Positions 13,819 through 30,042 of a DNA stretch of 34,643 nt are shown here, one piece after another. The stretch is from Fimbriimonadaceae bacterium (GTDB lineage: Bacteria > Armatimonadota > Fimbriimonadia > Fimbriimonadales > Fimbriimonadaceae), in NCBI GenBank assembly GCA_023957775.1, contig JAMLGR010000022.1, positions 1 to 34,643 of the forward strand. The letters run 5' to 3'. The notes beneath the pieces were generated by a model. The model had not been told where the DNA came from. It did no database searches and saw only the letters and a list, made by a program, of their open reading frames with translations. How positions within the stretch are numbered: the stretch's first letter is position 1; each line of letters starts with the position of its first letter. The position numbers and the translations under genes are program-made.

Positions 13819-13894
13819 AGGGGTGGGCGCGGGTTTCGCGCAGAGGGGTAGAGGCGCACGGAGTGAAGGCACTGGTTGCCCGAAGGGTGCCGCG

Positions 13895-14750
13895 CATAAC
13901 GTGGGAGTGCGCGCGCTTGCGCGCCGCCCTGAACCCGAGCGGCTTGCCGCGAGTTCCGAAGCGCCGGGCGAGCCCGGCGGAGCCAAGGCGACGAGCAAGC
14001 TCGCGCACTCCCAGACTGGCCGCCATCGTGCATAACGTGGGAGTGCGCGCGCTTGCGCGCCGCCCTGAACCCGAGCGGCTTGCCGCGAGTTCCGAGGCGC
14101 CGGGCGAGCCCGGCGGAGCCAAGGCGACGAGCAAGCTCGCGCACTCCCAGACTGGCCGCCATCGTGCATAACGTGGGGAGCGGGGCAGGCGCTTGCGCGC
14201 CGCCCTGAACCCGAGCGGCTTGCCGCGAGTCTCCCGGAGGCGCCGGGCGAGCCCGGCGGAGCCAAGGCGACGAGCAAGCTCGCGCACTCCCAGACTGGCC
14301 GCCATCGTGCATAACGTGGGAGTGCGCGCGCTTGCGCGCCGCCCTGAACCCGAGCGGCTTGCCGCGAGTTCCTAGGCGCCGGGCGAGCCCGGCGGATGCA
14401 CGGCGACGAGCAAGCTCGCGCACTCCCAGACTGGCCGCCACCGTCACGTGGGAGTGCGCGCGCTCGCGCGCCGCCCTGAACCCGAGCGGCTTGCCGCGAG
14501 TTCCGAAGCGCCGGGCGAGCCCGGCGGATGCACGGCGACGAGCAAGCTCGCGCACTCCCAGACTGGCCGCCATCGTGCATAACGTGGGAGTGCGCGCGCT
14601 CGCGCGCCGCCCTGAACCCGAGCGGCTTGCCGCGAGTTCCTAGGCGCCGGGCGAGCCCGGCGGAGCCAAGGCGACGAGCAAGCTCGCGCACTCCCAGACT
14701 GGCAAGCTCGCGCACTCCCAGACTGGCACGCTCGCGCACTCCCATGGGGG
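13895..14750. repeat. Six tandem copies of a ~136-bp multi-hairpin repeat
   Basis: The 939-bp gap 13819-14757 is non-coding and mostly this array. Units begin near 13895, 14031, 14167, 14310, 14442 and 14578 (periods 136, 136, 143, about 132, 136). Each unit opens with GTGGGAGTGCGCGCG and closes with the near-inverse CGCGCACTCCCA, so its ends form terminal inverted repeats of about 27 bp. Inside are GCGGC-TT-GCCGC and CGCCGGG-CGAG-CCCGGCG stem-loops. The array ends in three shorter copies of the right arm (AAGCTCGCGCACTCCC, about 14682-14743). Units differ by a few substitutions and one 7-bp insertion. This is the layout of a BIME/REP cluster or a tandemly amplified small inverted-repeat element. 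Open frames across it are artefacts of its GC content. Confidence 0.92.
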
Positions 14751-14757: not shown

Positions 14758-15237
14758 CTATTTGGGGAGCAGTTTGGCTTCCCGCAATGCCTCTTCGAAG
14801 CCCAGGCGGTCCTCTTCGCTCTGGAACGCGCGGTCCGGCAGGGGAATGAACCCCATGGGCGAGACGAACAGGAGCAGGTACTCGTGGAAGCGGCGCGCCT
14901 TGAGCAGTTGGGAGAGGGCCACCCGCCCGTAGGACCCGTCCTCGACGTGCGTCTCCAGGGTCTCGCCGTCGAATCGGACCGTGCGCGTGAGGGTCACCAG
15001 GCGGCCCGTTCGGCCCTTCACCCCGCCGCGGCTCGACAGCAGCACGAACAAAGGCAGGTACACGATGCCGAACACGCCCAAGGCCTGCAACTCAAAGCTC
15101 CTTCCGAAGATCAGGAGCGCCGAGCCGAGGATCACCAGCGCGAGCCCCATCCAGCGCGTTCGGTACATCTGCCAGTTGGCCTGAAGGGTCGCGAACTCCT
15201 TGGTGGTGAACGCGAACGGCTTCGATTCGAAGGTCAC
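14758..15237 (-). CDS. YcxB-like membrane protein (second of a pair)
   Basis: The 159-residue product has two adjacent hydrophobic segments at about residues 25-65 (WMGLALVILGSALLIFGRSF and LQALGVFGIVYLPLFVLL). A cytoplasmic beta-rich domain follows, ending FVSPMGFIPLPDRAFQSEEDRLGFEEAL, the pattern of the YcxB-like C-terminal domain. Function is unknown in the family. The GTG start at 15237 overlaps the stop of the upstream gene by 4 bases (GTGA), so the two are translationally coupled. The pair has the same two-helix-plus-domain build and looks like an old duplication. The start was set by the GTGA overlap. Confidence 0.75.
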   Translation of the reverse strand: MTFESKPFAFTTKEFATLQANWQMYRTRWMGLALVILGSALLIFGRSFELQALGVFGIVYLPLFVLLSSRGGVKGRTGRLVTLTRTVRFDGETLETHVEDGSYGRVALSQLLKARRFHEYLLLFVSPMGFIPLPDRAFQSEEDRLGFEEALREAKLLPK

Positions 15238-15701
15238 CGCGCCGCCTCCAACCACTCGTCGAATTGAAGCCGGTCCGCTTCGCTTTCGAACGCGTTCAGG
15301 GGCACGGGAACGAAACCCAGACCGGACAGCCGCAACACCAGAAACCCCTGGAAGCGGGCCACGCGCCGGACCGCCCCCGTGCGCAGCTTCCATCCGCCGC
15401 CGTCGGCGCGGTGGAAGCGCAACAGATCGGGGCCGGCCTCGAGGAACACCTCGTGGTCGAAGCGCTTCCCCTGGCGGATGGCCGCGATCACCCCTCGGGC
15501 GGGAATGGAGATCGGCCAGAGCACGGCGGTCATCCCGAACACCTTCGCCATGGGGTGGTCGAGCAGCAACAACGTCCCGACCCCGAACGCGGGGACGATG
15601 CCGACGATCCACCAGAACCGCCGCACGTACTCCTCGGCGGCCAGGTACGCCAGGGACGCGCGCGAGATGCGGTAAGGACGCGTTCGCAGAGGCTCCGCCA
15701 C
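15234..15701 (-). CDS. YcxB-like membrane protein (first of a pair)
   Basis: The product (155 residues from the GTG at 15701) has two hydrophobic segments (FWWIVGIVPAFGVGTLLLLD and VFGMTAVLWPISIPARGVIA) and a C-terminal domain ending LGFVPVPLNAFESEADRLQFDEWL. That ending closely parallels its downstream neighbour and identifies the YcxB-like type. The start is uncertain. The GTG at 15701 has CACAAT ending 5 nt upstream, the local leaderless pattern. An ATG at 15725 or GTG at 15737 would add 8 or 12 residues and would bring the coding region to within 14 bp of, or almost touching, the divergent hydratase start at 15740. Confidence 0.72.
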   Translation of the reverse strand: MAEPLRTRPYRISRASLAYLAAEEYVRRFWWIVGIVPAFGVGTLLLLDHPMAKVFGMTAVLWPISIPARGVIAAIRQGKRFDHEVFLEAGPDLLRFHRADGGGWKLRTGAVRRVARFQGFLVLRLSGLGFVPVPLNAFESEADRLQFDEWLEAAR

Positions 15702-15727
15702 GTCCGATTGTGGCCGATCCCGCATGC

Positions 15728-15742
15728 CATACTTCACGCATG
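15728..15742 (+). promoter_or_regulatory. -10 element giving a leaderless start
   Basis: CATACT at 15728-15733, then 6 nt, then ATG at 15740, without Shine-Dalgarno. On the opposite strand CACAAT (15712-15707) sits 5 nt before the GTG at 15701. The two start codons of this divergent pair are therefore only 38 bp apart. Confidence 0.6.
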
Positions 15743-16495
15743 CTTCGCGTCGAGTCCGAAGGCCCGGTCGTTCGCGTCACCCTCGATCGGCCGGACGTGC
15801 GCAACGCGTTCAACGACGAACTTATCGCCGCTCTGGACGACACGTTCGCCTCCCTGGCGCCGCAGACAAGGGTGGTCGTGCTGGCCGGGGAAGGCAAGTC
15901 CTTCTGCGCGGGCGGGGATCTGCACTGGATGCGCAAAGCGGCCGCCTACACCGAGGAGCAGAACTACGAGGACGCGCTCCTCCTGGCCCGGTTGTTCGAG
16001 CGCATCGCCCACTGCCGAGCAGTGACGATCGTGCGGGCGCACGGCGCGGCGTTCGGCGGCGGATGCGGCCTGGTGGCGGCCGCCGACATCGCCCTCGCCG
16101 CGGAAGGGACCCGCTTTTCGTTCAGCGAGGTGCGGTTGGGATTGATCCCGGCGACCATCTCGGCGTTCGTGGTCCCCAAGATCGGCGTGGGGCACGCGCG
16201 CGCGCTGTTCGCCACAGGCGAGGTCTTCGACGCGCACCACGCCGTGCAGATCGGACTCGTGCACGCCGTCGCGCCCCGCGAGCACCTCGAAGCCATCCTC
16301 CAATCGAAGATCGAAGCGGTGCTGAACGCGGGCCCCGAAGCCGTCGCCCAAGCCAAGCGCCTCGCGCTGGAGGCGCCCCTCTCCATCGAGGAGTGCGCGC
16401 GCCGCCTCGCGCGGGCTCGCGCGGGGGCGGAGGGCACGGAGGGGGTCGCGGCGTTTCTGGAGAAGCGCAAAGCGTCGTTCGCGGTGGGCCCGTGA
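15740..16495 (+). CDS. Enoyl-CoA hydratase family protein, methylglutaconyl-CoA hydratase-like
   Basis: A crotonase-fold CoA hydratase of 251 residues. Visible motifs are DRPDVRNAFNDELI, the oxyanion-hole segments KSFCAGGDLHWM and HGAAFGGGCGLVAAADI, and FSEVRLGLIPATISAFVVPKIG. The combination of D-L-x-W-M and E-V-R-L-G-L-I-P-A-T-I-S is typical of methylglutaconyl-CoA hydratases (LiuC/AtuE) of leucine and isoprenoid breakdown. Its 4-base overlap (GTGA) with a downstream LiuD-like biotin carboxylase repeats the liuC-liuD gene order and supports that reading. A general fatty-acid enoyl-CoA hydratase remains possible. A 4-helix tail (LSIEECARRLARARAGAEGTEGVAAFLEKRK) is normal for the family. Confidence 0.88.
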   Translation: MLRVESEGPVVRVTLDRPDVRNAFNDELIAALDDTFASLAPQTRVVVLAGEGKSFCAGGDLHWMRKAAAYTEEQNYEDALLLARLFERIAHCRAVTIVRAHGAAFGGGCGLVAAADIALAAEGTRFSFSEVRLGLIPATISAFVVPKIGVGHARALFATGEVFDAHHAVQIGLVHAVAPREHLEAILQSKIEAVLNAGPEAVAQAKRLALEAPLSIEECARRLARARAGAEGTEGVAAFLEKRKASFAVGP

Positions 16496-17985
16496 TCCGA
16501 AAACTGCTGATCGCGAACCGCGGCGAGATCGCCGTTCGCATCGTGCGCGCCGCCCGCGAGTTGGGAATCCGCACCGTGGCTGTCGCCAGCGAAGCCGACG
16601 CGGAGGCCCTTCACGCACGCCTCGCGGACGAGTGCTTCCCGATCGGCCCCTCCGAGCCCACCGCGAGCTATCTCGATGCCGAGCGCTTACTCAGAGCCGC
16701 CCGCGAAACAAACGCGGACGGCATCCATCCCGGATACGGGTTCCTCAGCGAGCGGGCGAGCTTCTCCCAGGCGTGCAGCGACGCGGGGCTCGTGTTCGTC
16801 GGACCCTCTCCGGCCGCCATGCGCAAGCTGGGGTCGAAGATCGACGCCAAGGCGCTCGCCGTCGAAGCCGGCGTTCCGATCACGCCCGGGTTCTTCGAAG
16901 CGGGCGCCGACGCGGGACGGCTGAAGGCCGCCGCGGCCGACATCGGCTACCCCGTCATGCTCAAGGCCTCGGCGGGGGGCGGGGGCCGCGGAATGCGCGC
17001 GCTGCTCGACCCCTCGCAGTTCGACCGCGAGTTTGAACTGGCCTCCGAAGAGGCGCTCAAGGCGTTCGGCGATGGGTCGATGATGGTCGAGAAGCTCATC
17101 GAGCGACCCCGCCACGTGGAGGTGCAGCTCCTGGCCGATGCGGCGGGCAACGTCGCGTGCCTCTTCGAGCGCGAGTGTTCGATCCAGCGGCGGCATCAAA
17201 AGCTCGTCGAAGAGTCTCCGGCACCCGCCTTTGACACCCACCCCGGGCTGTGGGGCCCGATGCGCGACGCCGCCCGCAAGCTTGCCCTCGCCGCGGGTTA
17301 CACCGGAGCCGGCACCGTGGAGTTCATGGTGGACGAAGCGTCCGGCGAGTTCTACTTCCTGGAGGTCAACGCGCGCCTGCAGGTGGAGCACCCGGTGACG
17401 GAGTGGGTGACGGGAGTGGACCTCGTCCAGTGGCAACTTCGGATCGCGTCCGGCGAAACCCTCGTGCTCCCGGAGCCCCTGCTTCAAGGCGATCGAACCG
17501 TGCTCGGCGGCTGCGCCATCGAGGCGCGGATCGTGGCCGAGGATCCCGCGCACGCGTTCCTGCCCTCGATCGGCCGTATCCTCGCCTGGGCCGAACCGCA
17601 GGCACCCGGGGTGCGCGTGGACACGGGGTTCGGGCCCGGCGCCGAGGTCACGCGCTACTACGATTCGCTGATCGCCAAGGTGATCGCCCACGCGGAAACG
17701 CGCGATGCCGCCATCGCGCGTCTGAGGGCCGCGCTGCTCGACTTCCACATATTGGGCGTGCGGACCAACATCGCGTACCTGCTCGACATCCTCGACCACC
17801 CGGAGTTCCGCGCGGGCAGAATCGACACGGGATTCCTCACCCGCGAGTTCGCCGAGTGGCGCCCCTCCGACGAGGTGCCCGCCGAACTGGCTGCCCTCGT
17901 GGAAGCCGCAGAAACACAGGAAACGACAAGGTCCCACACTCCCCAGAAGGGAGCGTGGGACCTAGGCGATTCCTGGCGCGGCTAG
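16492..17985 (+). CDS. Biotin carboxylase subunit (acyl-CoA carboxylase alpha, MccA/LiuD-like) lacking the biotin-carrier domain
   Basis: Carboxylates biotin with bicarbonate and ATP. The 497-residue product has the full biotin carboxylase unit: IRKLLIANRGEIAVRIVRAA, GIHPGYGFLSE, the glycine-rich ATP loop KASAGGGGRGM, HVEVQLLAD, ERECSIQRRHQKLVEESPAP, and FLEVNARLQVEHPVTEWVTG. The following region (VRTNIAYLLDILDHPEFRAGRIDTGFLTREF) resembles acyl-CoA carboxylase alpha chains. Those usually continue for about 160 residues to a BT domain and a biotin-bearing M-K-M segment, both absent here. The reading frame ends in a low-complexity tail that crosses a strong hairpin (17929-17963). It needs a separate carrier protein; accB at 20539 is one candidate. 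The start is a GTG overlapping the hydratase stop. It could serve acetyl-CoA carboxylase (AccC) or methylcrotonyl-CoA carboxylase. Confidence 0.88.
   Translation: MIRKLLIANRGEIAVRIVRAARELGIRTVAVASEADAEALHARLADECFPIGPSEPTASYLDAERLLRAARETNADGIHPGYGFLSERASFSQACSDAGLVFVGPSPAAMRKLGSKIDAKALAVEAGVPITPGFFEAGADAGRLKAAAADIGYPVMLKASAGGGGRGMRALLDPSQFDREFELASEEALKAFGDGSMMVEKLIERPRHVEVQLLADAAGNVACLFERECSIQRRHQKLVEESPAPAFDTHPGLWGPMRDAARKLALAAGYTGAGTVEFMVDEASGEFYFLEVNARLQVEHPVTEWVTGVDLVQWQLRIASGETLVLPEPLLQGDRTVLGGCAIEARIVAEDPAHAFLPSIGRILAWAEPQAPGVRVDTGFGPGAEVTRYYDSLIAKVIAHAETRDAAIARLRAALLDFHILGVRTNIAYLLDILDHPEFRAGRIDTGFLTREFAEWRPSDEVPAELAALVEAAETQETTRSHTPQKGAWDLGDSWRG
17929..17963 (+). terminator. Strong stem-loop inside the 3' end of the biotin carboxylase gene
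   Basis: AGGTCCCAC pairs perfectly with GTGGGACCT. After one A-C mismatch, CTCCC pairs with GGGAG around a 5-nt loop (CAGAA). That is 14 pairs in 35 nt. No U-run follows, so it is not a classical intrinsic terminator. It lies 20 nt before the stop codon. It may block 3' exonucleases or mark a junction where the original C-terminal domain was lost. Confidence 0.6.
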
Positions 17986-17986
17986 C

Positions 17987-18006
17987 CCAAACCACAAACC
18001 ACAAAC
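17987..18006. repeat. Short heptamer array (CACAAAC type)
   Basis: Two full CACAAAC words (17993-17999, 18000-18006) are preceded by a degenerate CCCAAAC (17986-17992), immediately after the biotin carboxylase stop. On the minus strand this reads as GTTTGTG words directly after the pilin terminator hairpin, giving it a U-rich tail. Confidence 0.8.
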
Positions 18007-18007
18007 C

Positions 18008-18033
18008 CGGAAGGTCGCATAGCGACCCTTCCG
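18008..18033 (-). terminator. Terminator-like hairpin after the pseudopilin gene
   Basis: CGGAAGG-TCGC pairs with GCGA-CCCTTCCG with a single bulged base and a 3-nt loop, directly next to the stop of the pilin gene. Reading the minus strand, the hairpin is followed by GGTTTGTGGTTTG, a T-rich run made of the GTTTGTG heptamer. This resembles an intrinsic terminator whose tail is supplied by the heptamer array. Confidence 0.6.
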
Positions 18034-18987
18034 CTAGAAGTCGCGGATGTCGGCGACGCACGTGCCGGGAACGCCGTGCATGTCCCCGAAGTTCGGGTAG
18101 CTGCCCGGGTGCCCCACGCACTCGAAGTCCTCTTCCCGCTTCGGATACCGGTCGATCCCACACCGGGCCATCGTTGCCGCCGGCACGTGGATCGTCCAGT
18201 CGTAGTAATTCGGACGGACCTGGCGCTCGTACGCCGTGTAGTTCGCGCAGTTCGCTTGGACGGGCCCGCCGGTCGGCATGCCCTTGTAGTTGTGGAACTT
18301 CACGTGGCCGTCGGCGAACGAGAAGGACATGCCCTCGCCTCCGTGGCGCGGCCACACTTCCCACTTGTACCAGTAGTCGATCCACCCGCCCGTGGTCTCC
18401 GTCGAGTTGAACCGCCTCGGCATGTACCCGTCGGTGTACGCGATCGTGTCCACCGGCTGCGGGACCGCGGACTCGCTCATCGGGGGATAGTTGCGGGTGA
18501 CAAGCCCGGAGGGGGCCGGATTGAGGACCATGCCGAACAACCCGATGTTGAAGTTGTAGGCCGAATAGCGGAAGGTGCCCATGGGCCGGCACGACGGGCA
18601 GCGCGTTCGAATGAATTGGAAGAGGCTTCCCGCATAGTTGTTGTGCGCGAAGTCGCCCGCAATGTCCTGGCCCTTCGTGCCCTTGGGATAGCTCGGGCAT
18701 TGGAGGATCCCGGCGTCCTTGCGATAGTCGGCCGTCAGGTCGTGGGCGAAGAAGACCACGCCGGTCGTGCGGTTCCCTCCAATGCCGATCGGAAAGACCG
18801 AGTCGTTGTCCGACACGTACATGAGAGTGGACAGCACATGCTGGCGCAGGTTGCTGATGCACGCGACCTTGCGCGCGCTCTCCTTGGCCTGGGCGAACAC
18901 TGGGAAGAGAATCGCCGCAAGGATCGCGATAATCGCGATGACGACCAGTAACTCGATGAGCGTAAACGCCCGCTTAGAACGCAACAT
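18034..18987 (-). CDS. Prepilin-type N-terminal cleavage/methylation protein (pseudopilin-like, DUF1559-type)
   Basis: The 317-residue product starts with a class III signal: [21 protein letters not shown]. Prepilin peptidase would cut it just before F-T-L-I-E, leaving an N-terminal membrane helix. The rest is a secreted domain with [12 protein letters not shown], several Cys, and a late [20 protein letters not shown]. This H-...-DGH segment is typical of the abundant pseudopilin-like proteins of Planctomycetes, Lentisphaerae and Armatimonadota. Their job is not established; surface display or secretion is assumed. No other pilus gene lies nearby. Unlike most genes here it has a clear SD (AAGGGGG, 18998-18992) 4 nt before the ATG and a leader of about 38 nt after TACAAT (19038-19033), suggesting high expression. 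Confidence 0.92.
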
Positions 18988-18991
18988 GAAT

Positions 18992-19038
18992 CCCCCTTGG
19001 AGTGCCGAGCACCCGTTAGAACTACGGAGCCCATTGTA
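18992..19038 (-). promoter_or_regulatory. -10 element and strong Shine-Dalgarno of the pseudopilin gene
   Basis: On the minus strand TACAAT (19038-19033) would start a leader of about 38 nt that ends in AAGGGGG (18998-18992), 4 nt before the ATG at 18987. It stands out as a leadered start among many leaderless ones. No convincing -35 was found. Confidence 0.55.
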
Positions 19039-19055
19039 CGACAACTTTGCAAAAT

Positions 19056-19093
19056 CGTTGGTCACGACAAACGACAAACGACCAACGACGCTC
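19056..19093 (-). terminator. Terminator-like hairpin built from heptamers after the aspartase/fumarase gene
   Basis: Right after the stop, minus-strand words GAGCGTC, GTTGGTC, GTTTGTC and GTTTGTC lie in 7-bp register, followed by an inverted GACCAAC. CGTTGGTC pairs with GACCAACG around a 16-nt loop made of two heptamers, and ATTTT follows. This has the form of a weak intrinsic terminator. On the plus strand the words read GACAAAC, GACAAAC, GACCAAC, GACGCTC (19066-19093). Confidence 0.65.
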
Positions 19094-20489
19094 ACATTCC
19101 GGGAATGCCGGGCTCGGTCAAGTTCGCAGGGTCGAGCGCCTTCTGCAGCGTCTCCTCGTCCAAGAGCCCCTTTTCCCGCACCACCTGGGGAATGGTCTTC
19201 TTCTCGGCGAGGGCCGTCTTCACGACGTCCGACGCCGCCTTGTAGCCGACATACGTGTTGAGCGCCGTCGCCAGGGATGGCGAGGTTTCGGCGTAGTGGC
19301 GGCACTGCTCTTCGTTGGCGGAGATGCCGCGCACGCAGTTCTCGGTGAACGTGTGCAAGGTGTTGGTGAGCACCTGCAGCGCGAACTGGGACGCGAAAGC
19401 CATGCCGGGCATCATCACGTTCAGCTCGAGCTGGCCGGCCTGGACGCTGCAGTCGATCGCATGGCACTGGCCCAGGATTTGGTAAAGGACCAGGTTCAGG
19501 TTCTCGGCCATCGACGGGTTGACCTTGCCCGGCATGATGCTCGAACCCGGCTGCACCGGAGGCAGCACGATCTCGGCAAGTCCGGTCAGCGGTCCCGAGC
19601 AGAGCAGGCGCAGGTCGTTGGAGACGCGCGTCAACTCGAGGCAAAGGATACGCAACCCAGCCGCCAGGGCCGCCATCGGGAGGTTGCTCTGCATGGCTTC
19701 CCGAAGGTCGTCCGCGGGCCGGAAGCCGATGCCCGTGGCCTCCACCAGGTTCGCAACGGCCTTGGCGCGGTAGTCGGGGTGCGTGTTGAGCCCCGTCCCC
19801 GCGGCGGATCCGCCGATCCCCAACTCCTCGAGTTCGTAGGCGGCGTGCTCCAACCACTTGCGCGCCTTGCGCACGGCCGCCGCATACGCCGCGAACTCCT
19901 GTCCCAACCGGATCGGCACGGCGTCTTGTAGGTGGGTGCGCCCGGACTTCAGCACGTGGTCGAACTCTCGCCCCTTGTCCTCGAGCGCCCCCGCGAGCAC
20001 GTCCACGGCCAACAGCTGGTCCTCCAGCATCAGGCGGGACATGATCCGCATGGCGGTGGGGAACGTGTCGTTGGTCGATTGGCCGTAGTTGGGATGGTCG
20101 TTCGGGTTCACCCGCGTGTAGGTGCCTTTCGAGCCGCCGAGAAGCTCTTCCGCGCGGTTGGCCAGCACCTCGTTGCAGTTCATGTTGAAGCTCGTTCCCG
20201 CGCCCATGTGGAACACGTCCACGGGGAACTGGTCGCGCAGACGCCCGGCGAGGATCTCGTCCGCGGCGCTCACGATCGCGCCGCCGATTTCGCGGTCGAG
20301 GAGCCCCAGGTCGGTGTTCGCCTGCGTGCACGCCTTCTTCAGCAGAATGAAGGCGTCGATCATCTTGGGATGCTCGGTGAGGCCGCTGATCTGGAACAGT
20401 TGCCGCGACCGCTCGGCCTGGCTTCCCCAGTAGGCGTCCGCAGGCACTCTCACTTCGCCGAGCGAGTCCTTTTCCACGCGAAATTCCAT
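19092..20489 (-). CDS. Aspartase/fumarase-family lyase, probable aspartate ammonia-lyase (class II fumarase possible)
   Basis: The 465-residue product belongs to the class II fumarase/aspartase superfamily. These enzymes add or remove water or ammonia across the fumarate double bond. The signature loop [15 protein letters not shown] is present, as are [38 protein letters not shown] and [21 protein letters not shown]. The Q-S-T-N substrate motif matches aspartases (E. coli fumarase C has Q-S-S-N), and G-A-G-T-S-F-N-M-N is also aspartase-like. The start [14 protein letters not shown] fits both. I prefer aspartase but cannot exclude fumarase without phylogeny. The start is well fixed: TAAACT (20501-20496), 6 nt, then ATG. 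The gene diverges from accB with 49 bp between start codons. Confidence 0.9.
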
Positions 20490-20541
20490 GCTCCGAGTTT
20501 ACCGGTCGGCTCTTGGCGGAATCCCCCATAATAGGGGGGTG
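20487..20541. promoter_or_regulatory. Divergent leaderless promoter pair (lyase / accB)
   Basis: Minus strand: TAAACT (20501-20496), 6 nt, ATG at 20489. Plus strand: CATAAT (20527-20532), 6 nt, GTG at 20539. Only 49 bp separate the start codons and neither gene has a leader or Shine-Dalgarno. RNA polymerase binding to the two promoters should compete, which could couple the expression of the two genes. Confidence 0.65.
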
Positions 20542-20982
20542 CAGGAGTTCAAAGATCGGATCGACGAACTCGCGCAGCTCATGCGCGAATTCCACCTCGC
20601 CGAAGCCACGCTCCAAGGCGAGGATTGGAAGATCGCGTTGCGGCGCGGGCGACGCAGCGACGCGCCGACCGGCGATCTGGGTCAGCCGCTGCTGCTGGAC
20701 TTCGAGCCCCATGCGCCCGTGGCCGCGCCCGAGCCCCAGGCCCCGACGGGGACGCCGGTGAACAGCCCGATGAACGGCATCTTTTACGCCACGCCGAGCC
20801 CGAACACGCCGCCGTTCGTGCGCGAAGGGGACACGGTCAGCGCCGGGCAGGTCGTGGGGCTGATCGAAGCGATGAAGGTGTTCAACGAGATCACCGCCCC
20901 CTTGAGCGGTACGGTTCGGAAGGTGCTCGTGGAGAGCGGTCAACTCGTGCAGCCCGGCGAGCCGCTGATGATCCTCGAGTGA
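20539..20982 (+). CDS. accB: Acetyl-CoA carboxylase biotin carboxyl carrier protein
   Basis: The 147-residue BCCP carries the biotin that shuttles carboxyl groups in fatty-acid synthesis. The N-terminus is helical ([20 protein letters not shown]), and a Pro/Ala linker ([14 protein letters not shown]) leads to the biotinyl domain. That domain has [19 protein letters not shown], which includes the thumb typical of AccB, and the biotinylation site EAMKVFNEI with Lys113. The start is the GTG at 20539, set by CATAAT plus 6 nt; upstream in-frame codons lack support. accC is not adjacent, though a biotin carboxylase without a carrier domain lies 2.5 kb upstream. The stop overlaps the next start (GTGA). 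Confidence 0.94.
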
Positions 20983-21827
20983 ACACCGTCCGCGTCGCGT
21001 CGGTTCAGGCGGCGGTCGTCTACAACGATCCGGACGCCAACGCGGCCTACGCCGTCGGCCGCCTGCGCGAGCTGGCGACCCAGGGGGTGCAGCTCGCCGT
21101 TTTTCCCGAGGCGTTCCTCACCGGCTACTGCGTGGACTCCGCGGAGGAGGCGCGCCGCATCGCGTTTCCCGTGCAGATCGAGGGTGACGTCCTGGTTCGC
21201 GGTCCCGAGGCCTTCGAGACGATCCGGCGCGAAGCCGCCGCCCTCCGGATGCACGTCGTTTTTGGATTCGCCGCCCGGGACGCGCGCGGGGTGTTCAACG
21301 CCGCCGCGCTGATCGAGCCGGACGGCCGCGCCCGGGTGTACGTCAAGACGCACCTTCCCGAGCTGGGGCTGGACAAGCACGTCGTGGCCGGCGATTCGCT
21401 GCCGGTGTTCGACACGGCGCTTGGGAAGATCGGGATCCTGATCTGCTTCGACCTCAGGCCGCCGGAGCCGATGCGCGTGCTGGCGCTCGAAGGCGCGGAC
21501 CTGGTGGTCCTTCCGACGAACTGGCCCGACGGCGCGCAGATCTCGGCTCAGGTGCTCAGCGTCGCGCGCGCCGTCGAGAACCGCGTCGCCTTCGTCTCCT
21601 GCAACCGCTTCGCGCCGGAGAACGGCACGACGTTCATCGGCATGAGCAGCATCATCGACCCGCTGGGGAACGTGCTGGCCATGGCCGGAGGCGGGGAAGA
21701 GGTGCTCGTCGCCGATCTCGACCTGGACCTCTCCCGCCAGAAGCGGGTCGCCACGATCCCCGGCCAGTATGAGTGGACCGTCTTCGAGTCCCGCCGCCCA
21801 GAGCTTTACTCACCGCTGGTGCGGTGA
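20979..21827 (+). CDS. Carbon-nitrogen hydrolase (nitrilase superfamily amidase)
   Basis: The 282-residue product has the catalytic triad of the nitrilase superfamily: Glu44 in FPEAFLTGY, Lys123 in VKTHLPELG and Cys156 in [10 protein letters not shown]. These enzymes hydrolyse or transfer amide/nitrile C-N bonds. The substrate cannot be read from sequence; omega-amidase, N-carbamoyl amidase and deaminated-glutathione amidase are among the family options. The GTG start overlaps the accB stop by 4 bases, so it is translated with accB. There is no evident functional link to fatty-acid synthesis. A pair of heptamers begins 5 nt after the stop. Confidence 0.9.
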
Positions 21828-21832
21828 GTCTC

Positions 21833-21846
21833 GTTTATCGTCTATC
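21833..21846. repeat. Two heptamers between convergent genes
   Basis: GTTTATC and GTCTATC lie in register in the 17-bp gap between the amidase stop and the opposing gene. The second word overlaps that gene's stop: on the minus strand it gives TGA followed in frame by TAG, so the array supplies tandem stop codons. Confidence 0.75.
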
Positions 21847-22543
21847 AACGATCCACGACTCTTTCCATCCTCACCTTGACCTGCTGAACCGGGACCTGCT
21901 GCTGGCCGGGGAGCGATCCGCTGACCACGCCCTCCATCTTGTTCAGCTTCGAAGTGGCGGTATCGAGCCAGATCTTGGCGTCCACCTTCATCGGCTGCGA
22001 CGCCTCGCCTTGCGTGATTTCGAGCTTGGTCACCAGCACCGCCACGCCGTCGGCGACGCTCTGGAGCGTGACCGTGCCCTTGGTCTTGCCCTGGGGATCG
22101 TCGATCGCGACGGGCACGCCGACCTTCATCTCCTTGTCGGTCATCACGCCGCCGAACCGCCCGAAATTGAGCATCATGCCCATGCCGCCGCGCATGCCCC
22201 CGCCGGGCGCGCCGGTCGAGCCGCCGATAGGAACGCCGCGGTTGTTCACGCGCTGGAGGGTCGCCGGAGGGGCGGGCGGATTCATCGTGTTGCCCATCGC
22301 GTTGACGGTCATGTCCGTGACGGCCGTCTCGAGGTCGGCATCGCCGTTCTCGTACACCTTCTTCACGGTCTGCGACATCTTCATCGAGATGTCGAACGGC
22401 CCCATATCCGACTCGATCGCGATCGCCATCGAGTAGGCGTCGGATTCCCCGACCTTGTACGTACGACCGAACTTCAGCCCGTCTTGGGCCGCCCACGCGC
22501 CGACCATCAAGGCGGCCGCCAACAAAACAAATCGAGTTTTCAT
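21845..22543 (-). CDS. Exported protein of unknown function (DUF6263-like)
   Basis: The 232-residue product has a signal peptide (MKTRFVLLAAALMVGAWAAQ). The mature part is beta-rich (FGRTYKVGESDAYSMAIAIE, ISMKMSQTVKKVYENGDADLETAVTDMTVN), with a glycine/proline/methionine-rich insert (GAPGGGMRGGMGMMLNFGRF) near residue 110-130. The first part resembles the DUF6263 family of envelope proteins, whose function is unknown; I give this match from memory of the pattern. The start at 22543 has only a weak -10-like TACCAA 6 nt upstream. It is separated from mqnC by an inverted set of heptamer arrays, so the two need not be one operon. Confidence 0.75.
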   Translation of the reverse strand: MKTRFVLLAAALMVGAWAAQDGLKFGRTYKVGESDAYSMAIAIESDMGPFDISMKMSQTVKKVYENGDADLETAVTDMTVNAMGNTMNPPAPPATLQRVNNRGVPIGGSTGAPGGGMRGGMGMMLNFGRFGGVMTDKEMKVGVPVAIDDPQGKTKGTVTLQSVADGVAVLVTKLEITQGEASQPMKVDAKIWLDTATSKLNKMEGVVSGSLPGQQQVPVQQVKVRMERVVDR

Positions 22544-22580
22544 ACACCGTTGGTACGGGCGGAAGGGCGCGGGGGTTACC

Positions 22581-22660
22581 GGGAGTCGTCTATCGTCTAT
22601 CGTTTGTCGTTTGTCGTTTGTCGGGGAGAGTTCCGGACGACAAACGATAGGCGATCAACG
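22581..22660. repeat. Two opposed heptamer arrays forming an inverted repeat
   Basis: Plus-strand words at 22581-22622 are GGGAGTC, GTCTATC, GTCTATC, GTTTGTC, GTTTGTC, GTTTGTC: three different words in exact 7-bp register. After a 15-nt spacer, the opposite strand carries GTTTGTC, GCCTATC and GTTGATC next to the mqnC stop. The two arms can pair over about 13 bases (GTCTATCGTTTGTC against GACAAACGATAGGC). This is the richest heptamer locus in the window. Confidence 0.88.
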
Positions 22661-22661
22661 A

Positions 22662-23744
22662 TCAAACGACTTCATACCGCGTGTTGCGGCGTTTGGGCAC
22701 GTAGCCCGCTCCTTCGATGAGCCGCTCGAACTCGTGCGCGTCCAGGATGAACTTGTTGCCGGCGGCGGACACGACGTTCTCCTCGATCATCACCGATCCG
22801 AAATCATTGGCGCCGTAGCCGAGCGCGAGTTGGGCGATCTTGGGGCCCTGCGTGAGGATCGACACCTGGAAGTTGTCGATGTTGTCGAGGAACAGCCTCG
22901 ACACCGCCACAGTGCGCAGATAATCGAAGCCCGACGCCTTGTGCGGGATGGGGAGCTGGGTGTCCTCGGGTTGGAAGTTCCAGGAGATGAACGCGCGGAA
23001 CGGCTCGCACTCGTCCTGCAGATCCCGAATCCGCCCCAGGTGCTCGACGCGGTCTTCGAGCGTCTCCACATGGCCGAACATCATCGACGCCGTGCTGCGG
23101 ATGCCGAGCGCCGAGGCCGTGCGCATACACGCCAGCCACTCGTCGGTCGTGTCCTTGTACGGCGCGATGATCTTGCGCACGCGGTCCACCAAGATCTCGC
23201 CGCCGGCGCCGGGGATCGAGTGCAATCCCGCGGCCTTGAGTCGCGCAAGGCACTCGTCGAGGCGAAGTTTGGAGATGTGCGCGATGTAGATGATCTCTGC
23301 GGGGCTCAACGCGTGCAGGATCACCTCGGGGAACTGCTCCTTGATCTTCGCGAAGATGTTCTCGTAGTAGTCGATCTTCAGCTTCGGGTTGAGGCCGCCT
23401 TGGAACAGGATCTCCGTGCCACCCTTGTCCACGGTGTCGCGCACCTTGTCGAGGATGCTCTCGTCCGAGTGCACGTACCCCTCGTCGTCCCCCGGCACCC
23501 GGTAGAACGCGCAGAACTTGCACCGCACCCAGCACACGTTCGTGTAGTTGAGGATGCGCCCGACGATGTAGGTGACCGTGTTGCCCGGCACCCGCCGCTG
23601 GCGCTGCACGTTCGCAAGCGTCGCCAGTTCGTTGAGGTTCGGGTGCCGATACAGTGCCATGGCATCGGCCGCATCCAGTCGTTCGCCCGCAAACACCTTG
23701 TCGGCGATGGAATCGATCGTGGAAGGGGGAGCGACGGTGGACAT
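22662..23744 (-). CDS. mqnC: Radical SAM cyclic dehypoxanthinyl futalosine synthase MqnC
   Basis: Catalyses the radical cyclisation that makes cyclic dehypoxanthine futalosine in the futalosine route to menaquinone. The 360-residue product has the radical SAM cluster motif Cys71-x3-Cys75-x2-Cys78 (NYTNVCWVRCKFCAFYR) and MqnC-type segments GGTEILFQGGLNPKL, LHSIPGAGGEIL, TASMMFGHVET and FISWNFQPEDTQLP. The closest alternative is the paralogue MqnE (aminofutalosine synthase); the Q-G-G-L-N-P and W-x-F-Q-P-E-x-T motifs favour MqnC. TAAAAT (23759-23754) lies 9 nt before the ATG. No other mqn gene is in the window. The last two codons overlap the neighbouring heptamer array. Confidence 0.9.
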   Translation of the reverse strand: MSTVAPPSTIDSIADKVFAGERLDAADAMALYRHPNLNELATLANVQRQRRVPGNTVTYIVGRILNYTNVCWVRCKFCAFYRVPGDDEGYVHSDESILDKVRDTVDKGGTEILFQGGLNPKLKIDYYENIFAKIKEQFPEVILHALSPAEIIYIAHISKLRLDECLARLKAAGLHSIPGAGGEILVDRVRKIIAPYKDTTDEWLACMRTASALGIRSTASMMFGHVETLEDRVEHLGRIRDLQDECEPFRAFISWNFQPEDTQLPIPHKASGFDYLRTVAVSRLFLDNIDNFQVSILTQGPKIAQLALGYGANDFGSVMIEENVVSAAGNKFILDAHEFERLIEGAGYVPKRRNTRYEVV

Positions 23745-23759
23745 ACCGCCACCATTTTA
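23742..23759 (-). promoter_or_regulatory. -10 element with near-leaderless start of mqnC
   Basis: On the minus strand TAAAAT (23759-23754) is followed by 9 nt and ATG at 23744, giving a leader of zero to three bases. No Shine-Dalgarno is visible. It lies in the 47-bp gap after the HAD hydrolase stop, so mqnC probably has its own promoter as well as read-through from the operon upstream. Confidence 0.5.
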
Positions 23760-23791
23760 CTTGACCTGAGCCTTCCGGGCCCCTCGCGTGC

Positions 23792-24583
23792 CTACCTCAA
23801 ACCAAGAAGCGGCAGCAGCTCTCGAAGGTCCCCGATCACCGCGTCCGGGTGTGGGGCGTCGACGGGCTTCTCCTCGGGCCGGGGCGAATCGCCGTCGGCA
23901 CTGGGCGGAACGTCCGACGCGCGCCGCACCCAGACGGCGTGCCACCCGGCCTCGAGGGCGGGGCGGACGTCGTGGCCGTAGCTGTTGCCGACAAACAGGA
24001 TCTGGTGCGGCTCGCAACCCACCGCCTCCCGCGCCCGCTCGAAGACGGCCGGCACGGGCTTGCCCTCGCCCATCTCCCCCTCGATGAACACGTGGTCGAA
24101 GAACTCCTCGATGCCGAGGGTCGCCAGCTCTTGGCGCTGCACGTCGGCGGGACCGTTCGTGATCACCCCCAACGGATAGTGCTTGCGCAGGCGCTCCAAC
24201 ACGCCCCTCACCCCGTCGAACAAGGCCAACGCTTCGTCGCGGGCCTGGCCGTACGCCTCTCCCAGGCGCTCGGCGAGCGCCGCATCCTCGATGCCGCCTT
24301 CGGCGAGCGCGAGCCGCATCTGCTCGGCCCGCGTGGGTCCCCCGCTCTTGAGATACACCGGATACCACGCCGAATCCTTGAGCGCGGGCCCGAACTTGCG
24401 GAAGGCTCTGGCCCACAGCGAGAGCATCTGCTCCACGCCGACTCCGGCGGGCCGGTGCGCTTCGAACGCCCGGCGCAGGCCGATCTTGCACGCGTCCCAG
24501 TACGCGCACAAGGTGTCGTCCAGGTCGAAATAGATGGCGCGCACGTCGCCCAGCGGCGCGGGCTCGGGGGATCGGGCGGTCAT
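23792..24583 (-). CDS. HAD-superfamily hydrolase (subfamily IA)
   Basis: The 263-residue product has the HAD motifs in order: motif I IYFDLDDTL (nucleophile Asp20, acid/base Asp22), a helical cap with KIGLRRAFEAHRPAG, motif II PLGVITNGPADVQRQEL, motif III Lys in GKPVPAVFERA, and motif IV ILFVGNSYGHDVRPALEAG. These enzymes are usually small-molecule phosphatases; the substrate cannot be told. The G-N-S replaces the usual G-D-x first position of motif IV, with the later Asp in G-H-D available. The ATG shares one base with the trpS stop (TGATG), so it is the last gene of the lysA operon. Confidence 0.88.
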   Translation of the reverse strand: MTARSPEPAPLGDVRAIYFDLDDTLCAYWDACKIGLRRAFEAHRPAGVGVEQMLSLWARAFRKFGPALKDSAWYPVYLKSGGPTRAEQMRLALAEGGIEDAALAERLGEAYGQARDEALALFDGVRGVLERLRKHYPLGVITNGPADVQRQELATLGIEEFFDHVFIEGEMGEGKPVPAVFERAREAVGCEPHQILFVGNSYGHDVRPALEAGWHAVWVRRASDVPPSADGDSPRPEEKPVDAPHPDAVIGDLRELLPLLGLR

Positions 24584-25587
24584 CAGCTCAGTCCCATCGC
24601 CGCGCGCACCTCGGCCATCGTCTTGGCGGCGAACTCGCGGGCCTCGCCCGCTCCCTCCTGGAGAATCTGCTCCACGGTCGCGTCGTCCAACTGGCTGCGC
24701 CGCTCGCGAATCGGCCGAAGCGTCTCGTTGATCGCCTCGATCAGCTCGCGTTTGTTCTGCATGCACCCGCGCTCGCCGCGCCGATCCTCCTCCCACTGCT
24801 GCTCCCAGTTCGGGGAGTAGATCTTCAGGTACTGGCACACGGCGCAGCCTTCGGGGATTCCGGGATCGGTCAGGCGCAGTTTGGTGGGCGTCGTGAACGC
24901 GTTCTTGATCTTCGCGGCGGTCTCGTCCTCGGTCTCGTTCAGGTAGATGCAGTTGCCGTACGACTTGGACATCTTCCGCAGGTGTCCGTTCTCGTCGGCG
25001 TCGAGCCCGGGAAGCTTGGATCGCAGCTCGTCCTCCAAGATGATGTTCGCGAACTCGGGAAACACCTCCCCGTACAGGCGGTTGAAGCGACGCCCGATCT
25101 CCCGCGACACCTCGAGGTGGGGCGCCTGGTCCTTGCCCACGGGCACCCCGAACGGCTTGTACAACAGGATGTCCGCCGCCTGGAGGACCGGATAGCCCAA
25201 CAGGCCGTACGATTCGCGCTCCACGCCGACGGTCTGCGCCTTCTCCTTGTAGGTGGGAACCCGCTCGAGCCACCCCAGCGGGGTGACCATGCTGAGCAGA
25301 AGGTGCAACTCGGCGTGCTCCTTCACGTGCGACTGGATGAACACGGTCGACCGCTCCGGGTCGATGCCCGCCGCGAGGTAGTCCTTGGCCACCTCGCGGG
25401 CGTTGGCCGCGATCGCCGAGGGGTCCTCCGCCATGGTTGTGAGCGCGTGCCAATCCACGACGCAGCAGTACAGCTTGTACTCGTCCTGCAGGGCCACCCA
25501 GTTGCGCAGGGCACCCTCGTAGTTCCCGATGTGAAGCTTCGGGTTGGTGGGCTGCATGCCGCTGAGAAGTCGTCTTTGCTCGCTCAT
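24583..25587 (-). CDS. trpS: Tryptophanyl-tRNA synthetase
   Basis: Class I aminoacyl-tRNA synthetase that charges tRNA-Trp. The 334-residue product has the family length. The HIGH-type motif is KLHIGNYEG (His19-Asn22) after LLSGMQPT, and the KMSKS motif is RKMSKSYGNC near residue 205. DWHALTT and YPVLQAADILLYK are tryptophan-pocket signatures. The ATG at 25587 follows the stop of the M50 protease gene by one base, and the stop overlaps the HAD gene by one base, so translation is probably coupled through the operon. Confidence 0.97.
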   Translation of the reverse strand: MSEQRRLLSGMQPTNPKLHIGNYEGALRNWVALQDEYKLYCCVVDWHALTTMAEDPSAIAANAREVAKDYLAAGIDPERSTVFIQSHVKEHAELHLLLSMVTPLGWLERVPTYKEKAQTVGVERESYGLLGYPVLQAADILLYKPFGVPVGKDQAPHLEVSREIGRRFNRLYGEVFPEFANIILEDELRSKLPGLDADENGHLRKMSKSYGNCIYLNETEDETAAKIKNAFTTPTKLRLTDPGIPEGCAVCQYLKIYSPNWEQQWEEDRRGERGCMQNKRELIEAINETLRPIRERRSQLDDATVEQILQEGAGEAREFAAKTMAEVRAAMGLS

Positions 25588-25588
25588 A

Positions 25589-26254
25589 TCAGAAGGGGAC
25601 GCCTGTGAAGAACCGAAAGGTCGCGCGCACGGCCGGGAAGATCACCGCCCCGAGGATCGGCGTTCCGCTGAACTGCCCGATCAGGATCAGGGCGATCAGG
25701 GCCGTCGTTCCCACGCGGCGGTTCCAGATGTACCACCTCACCCGGGTGGGCTCGGGGAGGAACGTGCCGAGCAACCAGTGGCCGTCCAGCGGCCCAAGGG
25801 GGACGAGGTTGAAGAAGCACAGCGAGAGGTTGATCAATACGCCGTAGGTGAAGAGATCTATCAGGAACAGGGCCGCGCCGCCCGCGTGTTGGAGCCCCCC
25901 CGCCACGCCCAACCGAAGGAACACGGCCCACACGGCCGCCTGAAGGACGTTCGATATCGGGCCGGCCGCGACCGCCGCGAAGAAGTCCCATCGCGGGTTC
26001 TTCATCTTGCGGGGGTCCATCGGGGCCGGCCGTCCCCAGCCGATGCCGAAGCCGGTCAGCGACGTGAAGAAGATCATCATCGTCCCGAGCGGCTCGAAGT
26101 GCTTCGTGAGGTTGAGGGTGACGCGTCCGTACATCGCCGGCGTGGGGTCGCCCGCCGCGTCCGCCATCTTGCAGTGCGCGTACTCGTGGAGGCCGATCGC
26201 CAAGAAGATCACGATGGCGATCGCCGCGATCGTTTCGGGAGGGGGAATGTTCAA
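25589..26254 (-). CDS. Site-2 protease family (M50) membrane metallopeptidase
   Basis: The 221-residue product is an integral membrane zinc protease of the compact, SpoIVFB/YwhC-like type without a PDZ domain. The zinc-binding HEYAH lies at residues 23-27 within the first membrane helix, and the third ligand is in NLVPLGPLDGHWLL, the N-x-x-P-x-x-x-x-D-G motif. These proteins often sit next to trpS in bacteria. The start is a TTG at 26254 overlapping the lysA stop by 4 bases (TTGA), which fits both coupling and the normal N-terminus. Its substrate is unknown. Confidence 0.92.
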   Translation of the reverse strand: MNIPPPETIAAIAIVIFLAIGLHEYAHCKMADAAGDPTPAMYGRVTLNLTKHFEPLGTMMIFFTSLTGFGIGWGRPAPMDPRKMKNPRWDFFAAVAAGPISNVLQAAVWAVFLRLGVAGGLQHAGGAALFLIDLFTYGVLINLSLCFFNLVPLGPLDGHWLLGTFLPEPTRVRWYIWNRRVGTTALIALILIGQFSGTPILGAVIFPAVRATFRFFTGVPF

Positions 26255-27585
26255 GCGGGGCTCTCCAAATCGTCCGGGACGGTCTCGCGCGCGAACATCT
26301 CGTCCCACGCATCGCGCCTCTGGACGACGGTGCGCGTTCCATCCGGCCGCAGCAGCACCGTCGCGGGCCTTGGATACCGGTTGTAGTTGCTCGCCATCGA
26401 CGCGTTGTACGCGCCGGTGCAGAGGACCTGCAGCAGGTCGCCCGCGGCCAGGTCGGCGGGCAGCGAGACGTCTTCGAAGAGCTGGTCCGTCTCGCAGTGC
26501 TTGCCGCTCACGGTAAAGGGCGCCTCCGGAAGGGCCACCCCGGGACGGTCTGGCGTTCGCGCGACGCGCTCGACCGTGTACTTCGCGCCGTAGAGCGCGG
26601 GACGGGGGTTCTCGCTCAGCCCGCCGTCGACGCCTGCGTACGTGCGGGTGCGACCCTCGCCGATGGGGACGGTCTTCACGACGCCCACGGTGTAGAGGGT
26701 GACGCCCGACTCGGCCACCAAGCTGCGGCCAGGCTCGTGCACCAGCAGGGGCTCGAGACCGGAGCCCTCCAATCCGGCGCGCACCGCGCCGGCGACGAGC
26801 TGGCAGTACGGCTGCACGTCCATAGGTTCGTGGTCGTCGAGGTAGCGCACGCCCAGTCCGCCTCCGACATTGAGCGTGCGCGTCTCGTACTTCAACTCCG
26901 CCTTCATCCGGGCCGCGAACCGCGCAAGCGTTTCTCCACCCGAGCGTTGCGCCTCGGGGTCGAGCAGTTGGGAGCCGACATGGCAATGGAAACCCGCCAC
27001 GTCCAGACCGAGTTCCAGGCACCGGGCAAGGGCCCGCTCGGCCGAGCCGTCGGCGATGTTGAAGCCGAACTTGGTGTCGGCCTGGCCCGTGGAGATCTTG
27101 TGGTGGGTCACGGGGTCCACTCCGGGGGCGAGCCGCAGCACGCACTCGGGCCGGACGCCCAACTCCCGCGCAAGGGTGTGGACCGCTTCGATCTCACCGA
27201 AATGGTCGATCACGATCTGCCCGATTCCCGATGCGAGCGCGAAGCGGAGTTCGCCGAGAGACTTGTTGTTGCCGTGAAGGTGGCACCGCGACGCCGGCAC
27301 CCCGGCCGCGAGCGCGCCGCGCAGCTCGCCTTCGCTGGCGACATCGACGAGGCAGCCTTCCGCGTGCGCGATGGCGAGCACCGCGAGCGTCCCGTTGGCC
27401 TTCGACGCGAACGCGACCTCGGTGCGCGGGTACGAAGCCTCCAAGGCGCTGCGGTAGGCGCGGATGCGAGCGCGGAAGTGGCGCTCGTCCAGCACGTACA
27501 ACGGCGTCCCAAACTCGGCCGCCAACGCGCGGGCAACCGGTTCCGACAAACGGAACCGCGTGTCCAGGCGAGGGGAACTGAGCAT
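26251..27585 (-). CDS. lysA: Diaminopimelate decarboxylase
   Basis: Converts meso-diaminopimelate to lysine with pyridoxal phosphate. The 444-residue product has the PLP-lysine Lys62 in VAFASKANG, HLHGNNKS, the glycine-rich phosphate loop VGGGLGVRY, and the substrate-side Cys in GKHCETDQLFEDV, all typical of fold-type III diaminopimelate decarboxylases. The ATG at 27585 lies 7 nt after CATAAT and gives the normal N-terminus. Upstream in-frame codons would extend into the divergent dxr gene. It is the first gene of a four-gene minus-strand operon. Confidence 0.96.
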   Translation of the reverse strand: MLSSPRLDTRFRLSEPVARALAAEFGTPLYVLDERHFRARIRAYRSALEASYPRTEVAFASKANGTLAVLAIAHAEGCLVDVASEGELRGALAAGVPASRCHLHGNNKSLGELRFALASGIGQIVIDHFGEIEAVHTLARELGVRPECVLRLAPGVDPVTHHKISTGQADTKFGFNIADGSAERALARCLELGLDVAGFHCHVGSQLLDPEAQRSGGETLARFAARMKAELKYETRTLNVGGGLGVRYLDDHEPMDVQPYCQLVAGAVRAGLEGSGLEPLLVHEPGRSLVAESGVTLYTVGVVKTVPIGEGRTRTYAGVDGGLSENPRPALYGAKYTVERVARTPDRPGVALPEAPFTVSGKHCETDQLFEDVSLPADLAAGDLLQVLCTGAYNASMASNYNRYPRPATVLLRPDGTRTVVQRRDAWDEMFARETVPDDLESPA

Positions 27586-27652
27586 GGAGAGGATTATGGC
27601 AGGGAACGGGAGTCGGGAATCGGGAATCGGGAACGGTAACATCCCTGCTGTG
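27583..27652. promoter_or_regulatory. Divergent leaderless promoter pair (lysA / dxr) around a heptamer array
   Basis: Minus strand: CATAAT (27598-27593), 7 nt, ATG of lysA at 27585. Plus strand: TAACAT (27637-27642), 7 nt, GTG of dxr at 27650. The whole space between the two -10 hexamers is filled by the heptamer array at 27608-27635, so both -35 regions lie inside it. This is the one clear case of an array between two start codons rather than next to a stop. Confidence 0.65.
27608..27635. repeat. Heptamer array in the lysA-dxr divergent promoter
   Basis: GGGAGTC, GGGAATC, GGGAATC and GGGAACG are in 7-bp register, preceded by a 6-bp degenerate copy. They occupy the -35 positions of both divergent promoters. 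Confidence 0.88.
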
Positions 27653-28759
27653 AAACGGATCGTGGTTTTGGGCTCGACGGGCAGCATCGGGCGCCAGACC
27701 CTCGATATCGTCCGCCGGCATCCGGACCGCCTCCAGCTCGTGGGGCTCGCGGCGGGCTCGAACGCCGAGGCGCTGCTGGCCCAGGGCGGGGAGTGGCCGG
27801 GGGTGCGGTTGGCGCTCCATGCGCCCCACCCCGATCTTCCCAGCGGCATGGAAGCCCTCGTCGAGATGGCGACCGCCCCCGATGTGGACCTCGTGGTGGT
27901 GGCGGTGGCCGGCGTGATCGGGCTGCTGCCCACGGTCGAGGCCATCCGTGCGGGCAAGCAGATCGCGCTGGCGAGCAAGGAGGTTCTGGTTGCGGCGGGC
28001 GAGTGGGTGATGCCGCTCGTTCGCGAGCACGGAGTCGTGTTGACGCCGATCGATTCCGAACACAGCGCCCTCTTCCAGTGCCTCCAGGGCTATCGTCCCG
28101 ACCAGGTGGACGAGCTGATCCTCACGGCGAGCGGCGGACCGTTCCGCGGCTGGACGCGCGCGCAACTCGAGGCCGTGACCGTGGAGCAGGCCCTGAACCA
28201 CCCCACGTGGCGCATGGGCGGGAAGATCACGATCGACAGCGCCACGATGATGAACAAGGGGCTGGAAACGGTGGAGGCGCGATGGTTGTTCGACGTGCCC
28301 GTCGACCGCGTGCGCATTGTCGTCCACCCGCAGAGCATCGTGCACTCGTTCGCCCGGCTCAACGACGGAAGCGTGCTCGGCCAACTCGGCTGGCCAGAGA
28401 TGCGCCTCCCGATCCAGATCGCCCTGCTGCATCCCGAGCGCAAACCCAACGACCTGCCTCCATGGAACCCGGTCGACACGCCCACGCTCACCTTCGAATC
28501 GCTAGACGAGTCCACGTTCCGCTCTCCCTCGCTGGCCCGAGAGAGCGTTCGGATCGGCGGCACGATGCCGTGCGCGATGAACGCCGCCAACGAATGGGCG
28601 GCCAACGCGTTCCTGGAAGGCCGCGTCCGGTTCCTCCAAATCCCGGAGATTGTGGAATCGGTGATGGAACGGCACGAACCCTGCCCCGTGACCCTTGAGG
28701 CCCTTCTGGAAACAGACCGGTGGGCGCGCCAGACCGCAGAGGACCGTGCCGAATGTTGA
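27650..28759 (+). CDS. dxr: 1-deoxy-D-xylulose 5-phosphate reductoisomerase
   Basis: Second enzyme of the MEP isoprenoid pathway: NADPH-dependent conversion of DXP to MEP. The 369-residue product has the NADPH loop VLGSTGSIGRQTL, LASKEVLVAAGEW, the substrate/metal residues in PIDSEHSALFQ, TASGGPFRGW, the flexible-loop segment NHPTWRMGGKITIDSATMMNKGLE and HPQSIVHSF. The start is a GTG at 27650, set by TAACAT plus 7 nt and by the family N-terminus. rseP follows after a repeat-filled 161-bp gap; dxr-rseP is a common bacterial gene order. Confidence 0.97.
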   Translation: MKRIVVLGSTGSIGRQTLDIVRRHPDRLQLVGLAAGSNAEALLAQGGEWPGVRLALHAPHPDLPSGMEALVEMATAPDVDLVVVAVAGVIGLLPTVEAIRAGKQIALASKEVLVAAGEWVMPLVREHGVVLTPIDSEHSALFQCLQGYRPDQVDELILTASGGPFRGWTRAQLEAVTVEQALNHPTWRMGGKITIDSATMMNKGLETVEARWLFDVPVDRVRIVVHPQSIVHSFARLNDGSVLGQLGWPEMRLPIQIALLHPERKPNDLPPWNPVDTPTLTFESLDESTFRSPSLARESVRIGGTMPCAMNAANEWAANAFLEGRVRFLQIPEIVESVMERHEPCPVTLEALLETDRWARQTAEDRAEC

Positions 28760-28767
28760 GACCCCCA

Positions 28768-28880: not shown

Positions 28881-28920
28881 CCCGAAACCAAATGCCCCTC
28901 GAAGGAGTTATGAGTAGAGC

Positions 28921-30009: not shown

Positions 30010-30012
30010 CCC

Positions 30013-30040: not shown

Positions 30041-30042
30041 GC

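Follow-up and report, generated by a model that had tools for sequence, protein, structure and literature searches.

The two heptamer-built hairpins found in the window (the whole 34,643-nt stretch of Fimbriimonadaceae DNA analysed here) are, with a probability of roughly 60%, IVP-less copies or derivatives of an element similar to the intervening sequence (IVS) of 23S rRNA genes, with the opposed heptamer arrays as its terminal arms. A full element would consist of a G-rich heptamer array, a gene for the 23S rRNA intervening-sequence protein S23p/IVP and a C-rich inverted heptamer array, and the hairpins at 19055-19088 and 22586-22661 would be forms that lost, or never had, the IVP gene.

The first hairpin follows the stop codon of a fumarase-family lyase gene, which reads at 19092-19094 on the minus strand. 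On that strand, the 5' arm TCGTTGGTC (19088-19080) and the 3' arm GACCAACGA (19063-19055) form a perfect inverted pair of 9 bp around a loop of GTTTGTC heptamers, GTTTGTCGTTTGTCGT (19079-19064), and TTTT (19054-19051) comes after the 3' arm. RNA folding gave -18.0 kcal/mol and z = -3.2, which was equalled by one of 200 shuffled sequences. The facing arms, the heptamer loop and the T tract had all been pointed out in the preliminary description, as had a six-word array facing a three-word inverted array. The latter was found as an array of five to six words at 22586-22622, which makes a long stem with the inverted array at 22637-22661; the joint fold of 22586-22661 has z = -4.1 on the minus and -4.4 on the plus strand, so the folding expected of both sites was borne out. 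No S23p/IVP ORF was detected at the 19055 or the 22586 site. The features of the window are listed below.

Table. Features of the window discussed in the text
Feature	Position	Strand	Basis
GGTTTGT array downstream of pilin-like gene (plus-strand CAAACCA)	17988-18006	-	sequence
Non-heptamer hairpin directly past stop of pilin-like gene	18008-18033	-	sequence; fold z -1.2
TTTT past 3' arm of hairpin	19051-19054	-	sequence; absent from terminator-scan listing
Opposed heptamer hairpin past fumarase stop	19055-19088	-	sequence; fold z -3.2
Fumarase/aspartase-family lyase (Lyase_1, FumaraseC_C)	19092-20489	-	Pfam
Heptamer array, CGTCTAT x2, CGTTTGT x3	22586-22622	+	sequence
Opposed arm CGACAAA CGATAGG CGATCAA, abutting stop of MqnC/CofH-like radical SAM gene	22637-22661	+	sequence; inverted partner score 17.5
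Left arm of IVP element, GGGAATC heptamers	31456-31492	+	sequence
Promoter-like TTGACA-17-TAAAAT just upstream of IVP gene	31519-31547	+	scan; only such match in 15000-34643
S23p/IVP four-helix-bundle gene (PF05635, TIGR02436; like XCC0516, PDB 2gsc)	31555-31950	+	profile/structure matches
Right arm, CCCGACT/CCCGATT heptamers, inverted relative to left arm	31953-32058	+	sequence

A sample of 435 kb (the window plus twenty 20-kb stretches) from the 3.5-Mb genome was searched for similar arrays. It contains 59 period-7 segments, against none in Markov sequence and 0-11 for other short periods. When genes are called after training on Pfam-supported ones, 60 arrays fall in intergenic sequence and 11 in coding sequence, and periods 6 and 9 show no comparable excess in intergenic gaps; such an intergenic excess over other periods is that of the heptameric simple sequence repeats of Xanthomonas and Nostoc. 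Extrapolation suggests a total of about 480 arrays for the genome, and the commonest word in the sample is GTTTGTC. Arrays are present in 46 of the 229 gaps. Where the neighbouring genes are co-directional, arrays lie a median of 6.5 nt from the upstream stop and 72.5 nt from the next start. Of 32 stop-proximal arrays, 24 are G/T-rich in the sense strand. An inverted partner is present in 11 of the 46 array-bearing gaps (2-3 expected) and absent from 35. A perfect inverted repeat of at least 9 bp is present in 10 of the 37 short gaps with an array (0.6 expected) and in 16 of the 142 remaining ones (3.6 expected). We also considered whether GTTTGTC arrays are followed by a conserved GGGG junction, and rejected this: of 19 sites genome-wide, only six have the junction, and at only three does the inverted arm that was tested lie within 60 nt.

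Repeats of other kinds were observed as well. Approximately six tandem copies of a GC-rich 136-bp unit with internal palindromes (GCATAACGTGGGAGTGCGCGCGC...) occupy 13894-14703 of the window, and GGGAGTGCGCGAGCTTGCTCG, which is similar to this unit, adjoins heptamer arrays at 12053 and 12204. Repeats of the CTTTGCGTCCTTTGCGTGAAACCC type are located at 28788-28873 of the window and in L112 (8251-8649), L113 (10513-10720) and L117 (17784-17928), and several of them directly adjoin GGGCCTT heptamer arrays.

The window also carries an IVP gene between complementary ends, as an IVS does, and the preliminary description had not connected the opposed arrays with such genes; the window copies are intergenic, however, and not inserted within a 23S rRNA gene. 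The encoded protein has matches to TIGR02436 and to the Xanthomonas campestris structure 2gsc, and this four-helix bundle (PF05635/TIGR02436) is encoded at 31555-31950 and at neither 19055 nor 22586. The 3.5-Mb genome has three strong PF05635 genes, including that in the window, and each of them is enclosed by inverted heptamer arrays, with a different word in each case: GGGAATC, GCGGTTT and CCTTCGT/GGGCCTT. Since an inverted pair is met in about 4% of random gaps, as we estimate from the gap survey, this is not a matter of chance. The words GGGAATC, GGGCCTT and GCGGTTT are also met at sites of the genome without IVP, and we infer that the arrays at such sites are part of one system with the IVP elements. 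The right arm (31953-32058) reads as the C-terminal coding end of a long convergent minus-strand ORF (31944-34577), and the array appears to have turned into coding sequence of this ORF. A weaker IVP-like match (30 bits, in a frame of about 190 aa) without a heptamer array was noted at 1501-1710 of L127 (G000:C14:33714), and similar weak matches recur in relatives. IVP proteins also weakly match Avd of diversity-generating retroelements.

The association between IVP genes and heptamer arms is strong. We compiled 91 IVP loci from Fimbriimonadaceae and other Armatimonadota, and the left arm of each was compared with the reverse complement of its own right arm (score at least 12). The arms are complementary in 65 of the 91 loci, whereas 3.3 would be expected from swapped pairs and seven were obtained in direct orientation. 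Arrays reach a density of 399 per 100 kb in the 100 nt next to the IVP gene. Farther out in these loci, at 200-1100 nt, the density is 3-9, which makes for a concentration of about 50-fold at the gene; in other loci, 11 arrays were found in 1.03 Mb. Both IVP flanks show peaks at lags 7, 14, 21 and 28 that are absent from sequence at 550-700 nt, with lag-7 values of 0.33 and 0.34 compared with 0.244 at that distance. In the 120-nt flanks, the best period is 7 in 67 cases and 14 in 21, any other period accounting for at most 10, and 61 flanks have none; 173 of 179 control flanks have no period. The polarity of the elements is fixed, the left arm being G-rich (GC skew +0.28) and the right arm C-rich (-0.24; controls 0.00). 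The words vary from element to element (TTTAGCG, GAGTCTT, AGTGGTC, GAGAGTA and others), which means that the arms match each other within one element and not a common consensus. Judged by period-7 arrays alone within 200 nt, 29 loci have arrays on both sides, 21 on one side and 41 on neither. Some IVP elements have arms with periods of 8-11, and period-8 or period-10 arms (e.g., TGTTGGCG and GTTCGGATTA) were observed in L182, L184, L172, L239 and L255, the last being a Gemmatirosa copy whose apparent period-8 arms were judged by eye; hence, the repeat unit is not of strictly constant length.

Tandem heptamers located between genes, the heptamer STRRs, are known from heterocystous cyanobacteria; the plasmid arrays considered here differ in flanking IVP genes, usually on both sides. 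A heptamer array accompanies each of the nine cyanobacterial plasmid IVP genes that were examined; seven genes have arrays on either side, and the other two on the left only. Their sites lie between ribonucleotide reductase genes, between cas6 and cas4, and beside transfer genes. In an Azospirillum plasmid, another IVP copy (L256) has heptamer-like ends and lies in what we take to be a 23S rRNA gene. Relatives were compared at one site of Nostoc plasmids, the gap that separates a TraM-like gene from the next ORF, and full, empty and IVP-less states all occur there. It is empty in L261, L262 and L266 (a gap of 51-52 bp without array), full in L254 and L264, where IVP lies between AGGGAAC and GTTCCCT arrays, and occupied in L263 by opposed arms of similar words without IVP. 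Different content, namely AATTCAA-type arrays, is present in L267 (opposed) and L268 (one array detected); these arrays adjoin GACGCTGCGCGTAGCTTGCTTC-type repeats where sister plasmids have IVP elements, and the IVP gene is absent. Full and empty states are also seen at the nrdB/nrdA site, in L249 and L265, respectively. No clear target-site duplication was seen when empty and full states were compared at the two plasmid sites that show insertion, the terminal words vary between elements, and no transposase was found. The Calothrix plasmid pair L250/L260, considered as a case of transposition, turned out to be one duplicated region.

Comparison of closely related copies shows how the arms change. 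Two full Nostoc plasmids (C052 and that of N. edaphicum) have seven versus six copies in the right arm and differ by one base in the left arm, with no mirror change. In the orthologous trio L203/L207/L208, changes in one arm are also unmirrored in the other. Compensatory changes in both arms, which the preliminary description expected of related strains, thus did not appear in this trio or in the plasmids, the places away from the window sites where they were sought. Independent change of the arms is the outcome that the preliminary description had named as refuting its terminator reading. Over long times the two arms of an element stay matched, but over short times each drifts on its own. This suggests that one arm is now and then rewritten from the other, and not that selection acts on the stem base by base.

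An IVS-like element would account for these observations as follows. Insertion would take place mainly just past stop codons, and the IVP-less forms would be part of the 3' untranslated region, mostly a few bases past the stop, with the G-rich arm transcribed ahead of the other. The transcribed arms would pair into a stem, at which the transcript may be cut or trimmed, by analogy with the action of RNase III on 23S rRNA intervening sequences; such cutting would make an insertion past a stop codon little harmful. On the same analogy, the stems of this genome are presumably RNase III substrates, and any effect that they have on termination would be incidental. Against this reading, the 435-kb sample alone has 60 intergenic arrays while the 3.5-Mb genome has three IVP genes, the single arrays in 35 of 46 array-bearing gaps could be independent of IVPs, 41 of 91 IVP genes are without a detectable period-7 array within 200 nt, some arms have periods of 8-11, and neither a target-site duplication nor a transposase was found.

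Alternatively, the arrays might be ordinary heptamer microsatellites, generated by slippage and fold-back copying in weakly selected gaps, which IVP elements prefer or where they are tolerated. That most array-bearing gaps are unpartnered would fit this origin, as would the rapid change of words and copy numbers and the genome-wide heptamer repeats of Xanthomonas and Nostoc, for which no link to IVP was noted (PMC4692102). However, microsatellites would not be expected to show the roughly 50-fold enrichment at IVP genes in loci where arrays are otherwise rare, arms that match each other or a fixed polarity, and the empty Nostoc sites offer no array for an IVP to enter. We therefore regard this origin as unlikely, though it is the strongest competitor.

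The preliminary description took the opposed arrays for interchangeable arms and tails of intrinsic terminators. Part of this stands: the pairs lie at gene 3' ends, are opposed and fold stably, and a stable hairpin downstream of a stop, as in an intrinsic terminator, is present at both 19055-19088 and 22586-22661. The TTTT past the former hairpin also agrees with termination. A GTTTGTC array was found past the fumarase gene in none of 29 relatives, one of which has an array of an unrelated word there; several relatives have a GC-rich hairpin, unrelated in sequence, past the same gene, so a 3' hairpin may be useful at this position and 19055-19088 may serve as one. Unlike intrinsic terminators, however, the heptamer hairpins are generally without a U tract. 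The four T of the 19055 hairpin fall short of five in the eight positions after the stem, and the scan did not list it; moreover, 19051 is the only site with a T run among the paired sites read. A hairpin followed by at least five T in eight occurs at two of 48 array-bearing versus eight of 169 array-free 3' ends, i.e., with no excess at the former. Opposed pairs are also found between divergent genes (L114, 8294-8367; L120, 6628-6691), where there is nothing to terminate and hence no need for a terminator, and the arms vary independently among orthologues. The suggestion that a heptamer array supplies the U-rich tail of the pilin terminator failed, since the hairpin there is not built of heptamers, has z = -1.2 and is followed by GGGTTTGTGGTTTG, in which no U run exceeds three. 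On the T-tail test and the divergent sites, we reject a general terminator role; as a class, the heptamer pairs behave unlike intrinsic terminators, the terminator reading is mostly not supported, and the use of arrays as interchangeable terminator parts is improbable. G-quadruplex regulatory elements, proposed for the Xanthomonas GGGAATC repeats with the identical word and a similar position relative to genes (PMC4692102), are a very improbable explanation, because the commonest word, GTTTGTC, and many IVP arm words lack GGG runs, and quadruplexes thus cannot account for the common architecture.

The IVS-like reading finds its closest parallels in published 23S rRNA IVSs. In those of Coxiella and Leptospira, as here, an S23p/IVP gene lies between complementary ends, and in Coxiella the ends are inverted and cut by RNase III and three GACAGAT heptamers, variable in number between strains, stand directly before the S23p gene (PMC4990558). 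Heptamers and an S23p gene therefore already coexist, unremarked, in the published Coxiella IVS. The present elements differ in lying between protein genes, in their long many-word heptamer arms and in IVP-less copies that are far more numerous. With the Xanthomonas GGGAATC and Nostoc GGGGA(T/C)T repeats they share intergenic heptamer arrays, GGGAATC being one of the word families here as well, and differ in having many unrelated words; the Xanthomonas GGGAATC arrays lie near stop codons, the G-rich strand being the sense strand, and include 70 opposed pairs in Xcc, and neither a link to IVP nor a general association with mobile elements was reported (PMC4692102). REPIN/MITE-type elements (e.g., PMC3116915) are likewise short, palindromic, intergenic and of high copy number; here, however, there is no conserved core, no link to RAYT or transposase was found, and the tandem-array arms have matched but free wording. 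No paper joining heptamer repeats with S23p/IVP was found in the literature searched.

More tentatively, and with less than an even chance in our view, heptamer arrays and S23p/IVP genes might make up one widespread selfish system, in which the IVP protein would recognise or help to make the arrays, the arms would be periodically rewritten from each other, and the heptamer repeats of Armatimonadota, Xanthomonas and Nostoc would be gene-less copies. The Xanthomonas S23p homologue forms a pentameric ring (PMC4990558). If the IVS-like reading is true, such hairpins should be taken for terminators or riboregulators only with caution, and two long-standing puzzles, what S23p intervening sequences do and how they spread, and why several phyla have so many intergenic heptamers, would become a single question, that of whether the S23p ring acts on heptamer arms.
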